Of a DNA stretch of 64,000 bases, positions 21,296 to 62,945 are shown piece after piece; the first letter of the stretch is position 1; each line of letters starts with the position of its first letter. The stretch is from contig NZ_ATXE01000001.1 of the NCBI RefSeq assembly GCF_000421525.1, forward strand, positions 558,001-622,000. Direction: 5' to 3'. A model generated the notes under the pieces. It was not told the origin of the DNA. It worked only from the letters and a program-made list of their open reading frames with translations, and searched no databases. A program made the position numbers and the translations under genes. The stretch is from Aestuariimicrobium kwangyangense DSM 21549. Lineage in GTDB: Bacteria; Actinomycetota; Actinomycetes; Propionibacteriales; Propionibacteriaceae.

Positions 21296-22495
21296 TCAGG
21301 GGGTCGGTGCCGCCAGTCGTCGACGGCGCAGGCCTTGGAGGGCCATCAGTGCCAGAGCGAGGACAAGACCGACCCCGCCCGCGAGGATGAAGCCGGCGTG
21401 CCATCCGCGCAGGTCCATCGCCAGACCGACGGCGGGTGGGGCGAGGGTGTTGCCGGCGGTCATGAAGGATCCCTGCCAGCCGAGCAGCTGGCCACGCTCG
21501 CGCGGGGAGACGATCTGCTGGAGTTGGTCCTGGGCAGCAACCAGGGTGGGAGCGCAGAAGGCCCCGGCGACCAACAGCAGCAGGTTGAGGGTGAACACAC
21601 CCGTGGCCAACGAGACCAGGGCGGTCGACGCACCCAGTCCCAGCACCAGCCAGACGACGGGGACTGCCCGGTGGAGGCCGCCGTAGGCCAGACCCGCGAC
21701 CGCCGACCCCAGCCCCCACACGGCCAGGGTGAGTCCGATCAGTTGCGGGGCCCCCAGTTGGCGCAGGGCAGCCACGACACCGATGTCGGTGCCGGCGAGG
21801 ATGAACCCCGCCACTGCGCTGGCAGCGAGGATTCCCAACACCTGCGGGGTCGCCCAAGTGAGTCGGCGGCGGCCGGGCTCGGGCTCCTCCGAGCGGTGAC
21901 CTGCCTCGTCCGGGCTGACGATCGCGACATTCACGAGGGTGAGAACCAGGGCGCCCAGGACGGTCATCATGCCGAAGATCAGCAGCGCCCAGGTGGTGCT
22001 CCACATGGTGCCGATCCAGATTCCGAGGGCGGGGCCGACCATGAAGCAGACCTCGACGATGGTCGAGTCGAGCGAGATTGACGTCCGTCGCATGGCCGGC
22101 GGGGTCGCGGCCAGTACCGCCTGCCGGATGACCGAGAACGAGGGGAACATGACCAGGCCGAGGACGGCCGCCAGCACCAGCAGCAACCAGTACTGGCGCA
22201 CGAAGGGCAACAGGATGAACACCGGGGTGAGCACCACGAGCGAGGGCACCATGGTGCGACGCAAGCCGATGCGGTCGAGCAGGGATCCCCGCCAAGGGGC
22301 GCTGATGGCCAGGCCGATCGTCCACACCGCCGAGACGATGCCGGCTCGCGAGTAGGGCAGGTGCAGGGCCTCGACCAGATGCACCGTCAGCAACACTCCG
22401 AAGCCGAACTGCCCGATCCGGGAGATGGTGCCGAGGATGATGATGGTTCGCACGCTCGCCAGGGCCAACACTTCTCGATACGCGCCGAACTTCAC
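21296..22495 (-). CDS. MFS transporter, drug-exporter type
   Basis: 399 residues from GTG 22495, giving ~12 membrane helices. The loop SAPWRGSLLDRIGLRRTMV corresponds to the MFS motif-A region between helices 2 and 3. Substrate cannot be told. The start is fixed by a TATGAT element and six-base spacing before GTG; a further 69 in-frame codons upstream are Pro/Arg-rich, run through an intergenic repeat array and are rejected. It ends 46 bp before the argG ARG boxes on the same strand. Confidence 0.82.
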   Translation of the reverse strand: MKFGAYREVLALASVRTIIILGTISRIGQFGFGVLLTVHLVEALHLPYSRAGIVSAVWTIGLAISAPWRGSLLDRIGLRRTMVPSLVVLTPVFILLPFVRQYWLLLVLAAVLGLVMFPSFSVIRQAVLAATPPAMRRTSISLDSTIVEVCFMVGPALGIWIGTMWSTTWALLIFGMMTVLGALVLTLVNVAIVSPDEAGHRSEEPEPGRRRLTWATPQVLGILAASAVAGFILAGTDIGVVAALRQLGAPQLIGLTLAVWGLGSAVAGLAYGGLHRAVPVVWLVLGLGASTALVSLATGVFTLNLLLLVAGAFCAPTLVAAQDQLQQIVSPRERGQLLGWQGSFMTAGNTLAPPAVGLAMDLRGWHAGFILAGGVGLVLALALMALQGLRRRRLAAPTP

Positions 22496-22570: not shown

Positions 22571-22777
22571 CTGCCGATGCCTGGTTGGGCGCGGTTGCCC
22601 TTGTTCAGCGCGGATGCCCGCGTGAGGAGCACTTGCCCTCGTTCCTGCCCAGTTGCCCTCGTGAGGCGCACTTGCCCTGCCCCTGACCGGGGGCAACTGC
22701 ACCGGACGAGGGCAGGTGGTGCGTTACGAGGGCAGGTGCGAGCGGGACGTGGGCAGGTGCGAGCCGACGCCGCCCCC
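22571..22777. repeat. Intergenic inverted array of ~19-20 bp GGGCAA units, copy 1
   Basis: A run of units built on GGGCA(A/G)-(G/C)TGC, each starting 19-21 bp after the last. On the minus strand GGGCA cores lie near 22600, 22619, 22638, 22658 and 22677; on the plus strand they start at 22691, 22710, 22730 and 22751. The two halves face each other around 22678-22690, making a large, imperfect inverted structure. It fills nearly all the gap between the NagD-like and MFS genes. The same organisation recurs at 62778-62918. Neither copy encodes a plausible protein. Confidence 0.72.
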
Positions 22778-22781
22778 AACC

Positions 22782-23561
22782 TCAGAGCATGTCGCGCAAC
22801 TCGGCGACCGACTCCACCACCAGGCTGGGCTGGTAGGGGAAACGCTCGAGGTCGTCCCGGCTGGTGATGCCGGTCAGCACCAGCACCGTGAACAGCCCTG
22901 CCTCCATGCCAGCAACGATGTCGGTGTCCATCCGGTCGCCGATCATCGCGGTGGTCTCGGAGTGGGCCTCGATCTTGTTGAGGGCCGAGCGGAACATCAT
23001 CGGGTTGGGCTTGCCCACGATGTAGGGACGACGGTTGGTCGCCGTGGTTATCATGGCCGCCACGGCGCCGGTCGCCGGCAGCAGTCCCTCGGGGCTGGGG
23101 CCGGTGGCGTCCGGGTTGGTGCAGATGAACTTCGCACCCTTCGAGATCAACCGGACGGCGGTGGTGATCTGCTCGAAGGAATAGGTGCGCGTCTCGCCGA
23201 GCACGACGTAGTCGACGTCCACCTCGGTGAGGATGAATCCCGCCGAGTGCAGGGCGGTGGTGAGACCAGCCTCACCGATGGCGTAGAGGCGGGCCCCCGG
23301 GTGTTGGTCGCGCAGGAAGGCGGCGGTGGCCAGGGCGGAGGTCCACAGTGTCTCCTCCGGCACCGACAAGCCGCTCCGCTCCAGCCGCGCGGCCAGGTCG
23401 CGCGGGGTGAAGATGGAGTTGTTGGTGAGCACCAGGAACCGGTGCGAGGTGTCGACCCACAGTCTCAACAGGTCGGCCGCCCCTGGGATGGCGGCGTTCT
23501 CGTGCACGAGCACGCCATCCATGTCGGTCAACCAGCATTCGATGTCGCGAGGTGTGCGCAT
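22782..23561 (-). CDS. HAD-IIA family (NagD-like) phosphatase
   Basis: 259 residues. The N-terminal DMDGVLVHENAAIPGA is the HAD motif I in the form used by NagD/pNPPase-type (subfamily IIA) enzymes; FLVLTNNS is motif II, GKPNP carries the motif III lysine and GDRMDTDI is motif IV. These enzymes dephosphorylate small sugar or nucleotide phosphates in the cytoplasm; the exact substrate is not predictable. ATG 23561 is six bases after a TACACT -10 element. The gene is divergent from the DUF2461 gene, and the 3' end abuts the repeat array. Confidence 0.88.
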   Translation of the reverse strand: MRTPRDIECWLTDMDGVLVHENAAIPGAADLLRLWVDTSHRFLVLTNNSIFTPRDLAARLERSGLSVPEETLWTSALATAAFLRDQHPGARLYAIGEAGLTTALHSAGFILTEVDVDYVVLGETRTYSFEQITTAVRLISKGAKFICTNPDATGPSPEGLLPATGAVAAMITTATNRRPYIVGKPNPMMFRSALNKIEAHSETTAMIGDRMDTDIVAGMEAGLFTVLVLTGITSRDDLERFPYQPSLVVESVAELRDML

Positions 23562-25394: not shown

Positions 25395-25477
25395 GGCGAG
25401 GTCGCATAGTGGACTAGTGCAGCCGCCTTGAAAGCGGCCGAGGGCAACCTCCGTGGGTTCGAATCCCACCCTCGCCG
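25395..25477 (+). tRNA. tRNA-Ser(UGA)
   Basis: A complete cloverleaf: acceptor GGCGAGG pairs with CCTCGCC, anticodon stem GCCGC/GCGGC encloses CTTGAAA (anticodon TGA), a class II variable arm GAGG-GCAA-CCTC, and T-arm GTGGG-TTCGAAT-CCCAC. The 3' CCA is not encoded. TACGAT at 25363-25368 is the likely -10. No terminator hairpin is obvious before the next gene. Confidence 0.95.
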
Positions 25478-28257: not shown

Positions 28258-28350
28258 GGAGGCGTCGCCTAGTCCGGTCTATGGCGCCCGCCTGCTAAGC
28301 GGGAGCGGTCTACAAGCCGCACGCGGGTTCAAATCCCGCCGCCTCCGCCA
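28258..28350 (+). tRNA. tRNA-Ser(GCU)
   Basis: Acceptor GGAGGCG pairs with CGCCTCC; anticodon stem CCCGC/GCGGG with loop CTGCTAA gives anticodon GCT; a long variable arm (GCGG...CCGC) confirms serine class II; T-arm GCGGG-TTCAAAT-CCCGC. The CCA end is encoded, unlike in the two other tRNAs here. Confidence 0.96.
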
Positions 28351-30556: not shown

Positions 30557-30629
30557 GCGCTCGTGGCTCAACGGATAGAGCATCTGACTACGGATCAGAA
30601 GGTTGGGGGTTCGAATCCCTCCGAGCGCG
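30557..30629 (+). tRNA. tRNA-Arg(ACG)
   Basis: Acceptor GCGCTCG with CGAGCGC, D-arm GCTC...GAGC, anticodon stem TCTGA/TCAGA with loop CTACGGA (anticodon ACG, read as ICG), T-arm GGGGG-TTCGAAT-CCCTC. CCA is not encoded. Confidence 0.97.
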
Positions 30630-61683: not shown

Positions 61684-61753
61684 CGTCGGTTGAGCAGCGA
61701 GGAATGATCCGGCCAACGTCGGTTGAGTAGCGAGGAACGAGCGTGTCGAAACC
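61684..61753 (+). repeat. Intergenic GGTTGAGTAGCGAGGA repeat, plus-strand copies before menB
   Basis: CGTCGGTTGAGCAGCGAGGA starts at 61684 and a second copy (GAGTAG in place of GAGCAG) at 61717, 33 bp apart. The second extends through GCGTGTCGAAACC to 61753. GAGGA and the GTG start codon of menB are both within the repeat. Confidence 0.8.
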
Positions 61754-62678
61754 ATCCCAGCCCTTCAACCCCGACCTGTGGGACGAGATCACCGGCGACC
61801 AGGTCGACGGGGGCGCCGCCTTCACCGACATCACCTACCACCGCGCCAAGCGGGTGCCGGCGGTCAGGATCGCCATCGACCGGCCCGAGGTGCGCAACGC
61901 CTTTCGTCCGCACACCGTGGACGAGCTGTACCGCGCCCTCGACCACGCCCGCCGTTCGGCCGATGTGGGCTGCGTGCTGCTGACCGGCAACGGGCCGTCC
62001 GAGAAGGATGGCGGGTGGGCCTTCTGCTCCGGTGGTGACCAGCGCATTCGCGGACGATCCGGTTACCAGTACGCCGAGGGTGAGACCGCCTCGACCGTCG
62101 ACGCCAGGCGAGCGGCCGCCGAGGGAGGACGGCTGCACATCCTCGAGGTGCAGCGGTTGATCCGGTTCATGCCGAAGGTGGTGATCGCGCTCGTCAACGG
62201 ATGGGCCGCCGGTGGCGGTCACTCGCTGCACGTGGTCTGCGACCTGACCCTTGCCTCGGCCGAGCACGCCCGCTTCAAGCAGACCGATGCCGATGTCGGC
62301 TCGTTCGATGCCGGGTTCGGCTCGGCGTACCTCGCGCGGCAGGTGGGGCAGAAGGTCGCTCGCGAGATCTTCTTCCTGGGTGAGACCTACGACGCGCAGC
62401 GGGCCTACGAGATGGGCACGGTCAACAAGGTGGTGCCGCACGACGGCCTCGAGACGGTCGGTCTGGAGTGGGCGGCGAAGGTGTGCGGCAAGTCGCCGAC
62501 TGCCCAGCGGATGTTGAAGTTCGCGTTCAACGCCATCGATGACGGGCTGATCGGGCAGCAGGTGTTCGCGGGGGAGACCACGCGGTTGGCGTACATGACG
62601 GACGAGGCGGTGGAGGGGCGGGACTCGTTCCTGGAGAAGCGTCCGCCGGACTGGTCGGCCTTCCCGTACTACTACTGA
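61743..62678 (+). CDS. menB: 1,4-dihydroxy-2-naphthoyl-CoA synthase
   Basis: 311 residues from GTG 61743. A crotonase-fold enzyme that closes the naphthoquinone ring in menaquinone synthesis. Diagnostic segments: VRIAIDRPEVRNAFRPHTVDELYRAL, GGWAFCSGGDQRIRG, GWAAGGGHSLHVVCDLTLAS (oxyanion hole) and TDADVGSFDAGFGSAYLARQVG with the catalytic Asp/Ser; the C-terminal FLEKRPPDWSAFPYYY is typical. Length is slightly over the E. coli enzyme (285). No other men gene is adjacent. Start and ribosome site lie in a dispersed repeat (61717-61753), whose inverted copy follows the gene at 62701. Confidence 0.97.
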   Translation: MSKPSQPFNPDLWDEITGDQVDGGAAFTDITYHRAKRVPAVRIAIDRPEVRNAFRPHTVDELYRALDHARRSADVGCVLLTGNGPSEKDGGWAFCSGGDQRIRGRSGYQYAEGETASTVDARRAAAEGGRLHILEVQRLIRFMPKVVIALVNGWAAGGGHSLHVVCDLTLASAEHARFKQTDADVGSFDAGFGSAYLARQVGQKVAREIFFLGETYDAQRAYEMGTVNKVVPHDGLETVGLEWAAKVCGKSPTAQRMLKFAFNAIDDGLIGQQVFAGETTRLAYMTDEAVEGRDSFLEKRPPDWSAFPYYY

Positions 62679-62736: not shown

Positions 62737-62775
62737 GGGGAACTCGGGTCGCTCGTGCTCGAGATTGGTGGTCCC

Positions 62776-62945
62776 ACCTGCCCGCGTTGCGTCCCACCTG
62801 CCCGCCTTCGGAGCACCTGCCCTCTCCCTGTCCATGGGCAACTGCGCCGAACGTGGGCAACCGCCCCCGTACGCGGGCAAATGCGCCGGTCGCGGGCAAC
62901 TGCGCCGGACGAGGGCAACCGCCCCCGTCCGCCCTTGGTTCCTGC
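62776..62945. repeat. Intergenic inverted array of ~19-20 bp GGGCAA units, copy 2
   Basis: CTGCCC cores at 62778, 62798 and 62818 (minus-strand units, 20-bp period), then GGGCAA cores at 62836, 62855, 62875, 62894 and 62913 (19-20 bp period), e.g. GGGCAACTGCGCCGAACG and GGGCAACTGCGCCGGACG. The turning point at 62824-62835 resembles that of copy 1 (CCCTGTCC, compare CCCTGACC). Same structure and motif as 22571-22777, 40 kb away. It fills the gap between menB and the molybdoenzyme gene. Confidence 0.72.

Follow-up and report, generated by a model that had tools for sequence, protein, structure and literature searches.

Mirrored intergenic arrays in Aestuariimicrobium kwangyangense and a bracketed AbiEi-like gene as their candidate nuclease partner

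The closest described systems to the arrays reported here are the REP, BIME and REPIN elements with their RAYT partners, with which they have in common short, palindromic intergenic elements in many copies, often mirrored or arrayed, a dedicated gene on the chromosome with copies on either side, and an element sequence that is lineage-specific. The enzyme and the anatomy differ. The REP/RAYT partner is a Y1_Tnp protein, an HUH transposase, whereas the candidate partner here combines an AbiEi-type winged helix-turn-helix (wHTH) with a D...ExDGxxK motif. REP elements are palindromes of 20-40 bp with a GTAG/CGTC tag, whereas the present elements span 60-200 bp, are built from cores repeated every 19/20 bp, and have a consensus from which the tag is absent. 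A RAYT was also rejected as the partner, because the genome gave no match to the Y1_Tnp/HUH transposase domain (PF01797; controls positive in 5 of 14 known genomes) and the bracketed gene is not a RAYT. The system therefore resembles REP/RAYT in how it works but falls outside that group.

Three further systems resemble parts of this one. The inverted repeats to which AbiEi monomers bind are 23 bp long (PMC7319586). The type IV toxin-antitoxin system AbiE and Rv2827c share the AbiEi-type N-terminal winged helix with our protein; here, however, no AbiEii toxin gene adjoins the gene in the loci read, the C-terminal domain is nuclease-like, and palindromes lie on both sides of the gene as well as genome-wide. 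DUF559/Vsr-like endonucleases share the order of the C-terminal motif, and weak DUF559 matches occur in 2 of 30 members, but most members are unmatched, the domain is fused to an AbiEi-like wHTH, and a search of PDB sequences returned no homologue. BldC-type head-to-tail oligomers bind a variable number of direct repeats cooperatively, a likeness that serves as a lead only: here the units are mirrored about a centre and the protein family is unrelated. We consider it rather probable that the arrays belong to a two-part system, as intergenic elements that are scattered through the genome and recognised by a protein. The system would pair an AbiEi-like wHTH nuclease with a lineage-specific palindrome, an arrangement like that of REP/RAYT but built on an unrelated enzyme.

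The window, a 64-kb stretch of the A. kwangyangense genome, contains two arrays, whose cores, GGGCA(A/G), are oriented outward from a 13-bp centre.

22591..22760, no single strand: array 1, five minus-strand and four plus-strand units, between an MFS transporter gene (21296-22495, minus strand) and a HAD hydrolase gene (22782-23522, minus strand)
22595..22677, minus strand: left arm of array 1, cores at 22595, 22614, 22633, 22653 and 22672
22678..22690, no single strand: centre of array 1, 13 bp, TGCCCCTGACCGG (family consensus TRYCCCTGGACGG)
22691..22760, plus strand: right arm of array 1, cores at 22691, 22710, 22730 and 22751
62774..62922, no single strand: array 2, three minus-strand and five plus-strand units, between an enoyl-CoA hydratase gene (61743-62678, plus strand) and a molybdopterin-domain oxidoreductase gene (from 63096, plus strand)
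62778..62822, minus strand: left arm of array 2, cores at 62778, 62798 and 62817
62823..62835, no single strand: centre of array 2, 13 bp, TCTCCCTGTCCAT
62836..62922, plus strand: right arm of array 2, cores at 62836, 62855, 62875, 62894 and 62913

The core at 22614, on the minus strand of array 1, is the variant ATGCCC, and a CTGCCC at 62942 is out of register with array 2. No further chain of at least three cores occurs in the window. A preliminary description of this DNA had placed two such arrays at these loci, with the left half on the minus strand and the right half on the plus strand, and this layout is confirmed, far above chance. Its count of nine units holds for array 1; array 2 has eight, making 9+8 instead of 9+9. 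It was also right to set a CRISPR aside, as the units are contiguous, degenerate and mirrored, without near-identical repeats split by unique spacers. In an Rfam scan of the window the arrays were unmatched, and three tRNAs alone (25395-25477, 28258-28347 and 30557-30629) scored above gathering.

Pattern and profile searches of the whole genome (2.99 Mb in five contigs) place the two arrays within a family of about 26, so that they are not the isolated pair that would have refuted the preliminary description. A three-core pattern matched 50 times (against one match for the reversed control), and a four-core mirror pattern was found at 23 places in the genome, against none for the reversed pattern; this mirror pattern was absent from 198 other genomes of the family and from 394 of the class. 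The complete-genome profile scan that had been proposed, run with a sequence-only profile (R1, built from 25 loci), recovered 26 full arrays. Among the 25 arrays, the step from the first to the second unit is 19 bp in 50 of 50 arms and that from the second to the third is 20 bp in 47 of 50; beyond the third unit the steps vary, and the arms are unequal (3/8, 7/3 or 9/5, for example), with three to nine units each and 6-14 units per array. The 13-bp centre is fixed by the construction of the detector in this set, and an independent pattern that permitted centres of 11-14 bp returned 13 bp alone. Mirror symmetry with kept spacing, described at first from two loci, is thus a constant 13/19/20-bp geometry across the genome's arrays, and a spacing-conserved, mirrored array is consistent with the cooperative protein binding suggested at that time. 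The accompanying idea that a period of about two helical turns sets the cores on one DNA face does not hold exactly, since 19-20 bp is less than two turns of B-DNA (21 bp) and the cores are not exactly aligned.

All 25 arrays are intergenic in a sequence of which about 86% is coding. Their neighbouring genes are co-directional in 13 cases, convergent in seven and divergent in five, and a stop codon is often only tens of bases from the array. Since the arrays are often near stop codons while 5 of 25 lie between divergent genes, promoters are seemingly avoided and termination is not required. The distribution is uneven, with 19 of 25 arrays on contig C1. One match of the two-core pattern (G000:C2:669973, locus L011) was rejected, as it looks like a coding tandem repeat in a GQ/P-rich protein, unrelated to the intergenic arrays.

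Comparison of 108 array-flanking proteins from three lineages revealed a single recurring type, encoded in each lineage by a gene between two arrays.

Locus L044, 4507-5427: bracketed gene of A. kwangyangense (protein also placed at G000:C4:204506-205420)
Locus L132, 4570-5502: bracketed gene of the sister species (G001), 54% identity, E=2.6e-97
Locus L053, 5705-6733: bracketed gene of an Arthrobacter MAG, about 27% identity, E=6.5e-13

This AbiEi-like, nuclease-like partner gene, located outside the window, is the main point, and the preliminary description is incomplete in this respect. The A. kwangyangense protein begins with an AbiEi_4 winged helix (PF13338, E=5.2e-9), a domain detected in 19 of 30 family members. 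The C-terminal motif is D-x10-E-x-D-G-x-x-K, and D222, E233, D235, G236, K239, Y240, E257 and R260 are invariant in 30 aligned members. Four of these (D222, E233, D235 and K239) are the conserved residues of the D...(D/E)xK type, and the order and spacing of the motif, together with the weak DUF559 matches of two members, point to a putative PD-(D/E)XK-type nuclease. The partner is a single-gene protein. Judged by their sequences, its neighbours in A. kwangyangense resemble BipA and a protein that is not like AbiEii, and no AbiEii toxin gene adjoins the partner gene in annotated Tsukamurella neighbourhoods. A phage search gave no match, and plasmids gave two records. One named example, WP_074851054.1 of Tsukamurella tyrosinosolvens, is annotated as an AbiEi-family antitoxin domain (type IV) protein; its gene has tatB on one side and an Mrp-family gene on the other, and matching repeats of about 78 bp flank it at both ends. 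A. kwangyangense also has a second paralogue (C1:1391048), which is bracketed by a different palindrome with a AGCCACGT core and a 19-bp step, present in four copies, namely the bracketing pair and two more. Two paralogues, each with its own element, are what cognate pairing of protein and element predicts.

The association of gene and flanking palindromes extends across the class. The partner protein was found in 42 of 58 relatives and in 145 of 198 sampled class genomes, often as several diverse copies in one genome. The 300-bp flanks on the two sides of the gene align with each other (score at least 25) in 51% of 43 genes, against 0.9% of 107 neighbour genes (p=1.8e-9). The flank palindromes have cores that vary by lineage (CATGCA, GGCGCT, TTGCCAAGC, TGCGAGAACC and TGTTGGGTGA), and of the 71 arms scored, 58 have an internal lag of 19/20 bp; after shuffling the figure is 2 of 28. 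In an out-of-sample set of 40 further genes from other class genomes, with 400-bp flanks, flank similarity of at least 18 was reached by 89% of 38 targets and by none of 43 controls (p=1.6e-13); palindromes were present in 38 of 80 flanks against 0 of 40 gene bodies, and the 19/20-bp lag in 33 of 43 arms against 2 of 17 shuffled arms. About half of the genes at the strict cut-off (at least 25), and about 10% at the looser one (at least 18), are without a detectable palindrome pair. Genes of this type are therefore usually bracketed by palindromes across the class; the palindrome sequence is lineage-specific, and the 19/20-bp internal repeat is constant. In a limited search of the open-access literature we found this gene-palindrome association unreported, which is not proof of novelty.

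Elements in relatives show how far sequence and position have changed. The sister species carries about a dozen elements of similar style, with a 19-bp step, one to three units per arm and a 14-bp palindromic centre, CTGCTTCGAAGCAG. The nuclease-like gene alone flanks arrays in both species; since no other flanking gene is common to the two, array positions have turned over between the genomes. The sister copy of the HAD gene that adjoins array 1 of the window is without an array, and its other neighbour differs too. Scanning GTDB species genomes with the mirror pattern gave matches in the Arthrobacter MAG and in Galactobacter valiniphilus. The MAG contains 22 distinct elements of 2+2 GGGCAAA(G) cores at 20 bp, which display a slight excess of within-locus complementarity (p=0.002). 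Ancestry as the source of the GGGCAA core shared with Galactobacter and Arthrobacter was rejected: because the search pattern itself selects this core, the shared letters may be chance, and the evidence across these lineages is the shared geometry and gene. The remaining matches (Treponema, Meiothermus, Serinicoccus and others) look sporadic, like chance or coding sequence. In another genus (G004), about 15 sites hold the palindrome that brackets the gene, and 13 aligned copies share the same 68-bp limits within unrelated flanks. These are true palindromes, with covariation between the two arms of one locus (29.0 versus 27.1 of 32, p<0.0002), and the gene-bracketing pair are the most alike copies (65/68).

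The main rival to a two-part mobile system is autoregulation, in which the bracketing palindromes would be operators through which an AbiEi-like protein represses its own gene and the dispersed copies would form a regulon, without any mobility. Both AbiEi from S. agalactiae and Rv2827c from M. tuberculosis bind to inverted repeats within the promoters of the genes that encode them, and AbiEi-type autoregulation would account for the upstream palindrome (PMC7319586); the wHTH domain of the partner fits this too. However, an element copy lies on each side of the gene, the dispersed copies occupy convergent, divergent and co-directional gaps and are mostly near stop codons, and repression has no need of a conserved nuclease-like domain. 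We regard this explanation on its own as unlikely, and autoregulation may coexist with the mechanism proposed below.

It is less probable still, and in our view improbable, that the arrays are chromosome-organising sites under selection, coated by a domesticated DNA-binding protein that structures the nucleoid. The number of units per array, the concentration on contig C1 and the retention of cores and spacing while the remainder has diverged would all suit such a role, but positions differ in the sister species, paralogues of one genome have from 4 to 26 element copies, and genera differ in core sequence.

The arrays could also be read as RNA hairpins or bidirectional transcription terminators at gene ends. 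Their predicted stems are strong (z about -4.5), they often lie directly past stop codons, and convergent gaps are common, accounting for 10 of the 19 Arthrobacter MAG gaps with both neighbours called. The large RNA stem that the preliminary description allowed for is nevertheless unsupported in the A. kwangyangense genome. Within the first 45 positions, two arms agree at 30.2 if they belong to one locus and at 31.1 if they come from separate loci (permutation p=0.99), an outcome that is unchanged when G-U pairs are counted, and RNAalifold found compensatory change in 0 of 18 pairs. Conservation is limited to the core, a TG at unit positions 8-9 and the spacing; as detection required inner GGGCA cores on both sides, the invariance of these is partly built in, and the other columns are unselected. 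Because arms are no more complementary within a locus than between loci, the conserved entity in this genome is a lattice of GGGCA(A/G) cores and not a hairpin, and the lattice may well be protein-bound. With divergent positions, unequal arms and no T-tract standing against it as well, termination was rejected as a very improbable explanation. Least probable of all, to the point of being negligible, is a defence module in which the nuclease attacks foreign DNA and the host arrays are self marks, decoys or a storage platform: PADLOC AbiEi models match 30 of 30 members and genomes hold several diverse gene copies, but the matches in the A. kwangyangense protein are confined to its AbiEi part, annotated Tsukamurella neighbourhoods lack a toxin partner, and known self marks are all unlike the arrays.

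Returning to the two-part system, we propose that the protein binds the elements and probably once spread them. An element would consist of at least two copies of a short core per arm, 19 (20) bp apart and mirrored about a short centre, with two element copies bracketing the gene and more dispersed in intergenic DNA. The wHTH would read and bind each core, and adjacent monomers would touch each other and across the dyad, giving the rigid 19/20-bp step. The putative nuclease domain would then act on the bound palindrome, so that the element is copied or mobilised; in G004 the palindromes are nearly perfect and their arms covary, which suggests copying via a hairpin or from arm to arm. The A. 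kwangyangense arrays would be older, expanded descendants, grown from 2+2 cores to 3-9 per arm, which have lost arm-to-arm complementarity and kept cores and spacing, with protein contacts alone retained. Mobility is what we infer here; neither an exact empty site nor a target duplication was demonstrated. More tentatively, and with the balance slightly against it, the same description may apply class-wide, to a hitherto undescribed family of actinobacterial mobile intergenic palindromes. In each lineage, cores spaced 19-20 bp apart would identify the element to a cognate AbiEi-winged-helix nuclease, which the element brackets and which would propagate it, in a system unrelated to HUH/RAYT, DDE and recombinase-based elements. 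The constant 19/20-bp geometry on unrelated cores provides a probable DNA target for the family and a predicted binding site for each member, which makes a large protein family testable. If the nuclease moves palindromes, it would be a new enzyme class among the few able to seed REP-like repeats; if there is no movement, it would represent a repressor or chromosome-coating protein of a new type, whose specificity can be read.

Several minor observations concern the placement and variety of arrays. In A. kwangyangense, array pairs about 1 kb apart also bracket a DUF72 gene (L035:2880-4285) and a methyltransferase gene (L040:4619-5867); three bracketing pairs among 25 arrays exceed the expectation for random placement, and these two are perhaps chance double occupation. 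The Arthrobacter MAG has three elements within 4 kb (L069:2353-6319) and about nine on the 288-kb contig JAITLQ010000013.1. Mirrored intergenic arrays with a 22-bp unit, ACGAACCGTGGGCAATGGCACC, and units pointing inward occur in G026, of the same order as A. kwangyangense (L016:1500-1800 and L025:1390-1700), and are possibly another version of the system. Direct intergenic arrays containing GGGCA(A/G) were seen with 21-bp units in G021 (L021:1500-1570), 18-bp units in G028 (L013:1500-1580) and 19-bp units in G006 (L141:4460-4540). The last of these, another genus, also has dispersed arrays with a 20-bp unit, CACGTTGCCCCGCCTACGAG, and an CCCCGTCTATAG-type centre (L136-L139), and its AbiEi-nuclease gene (L146) is flanked by palindromes similar to these dispersed arrays.
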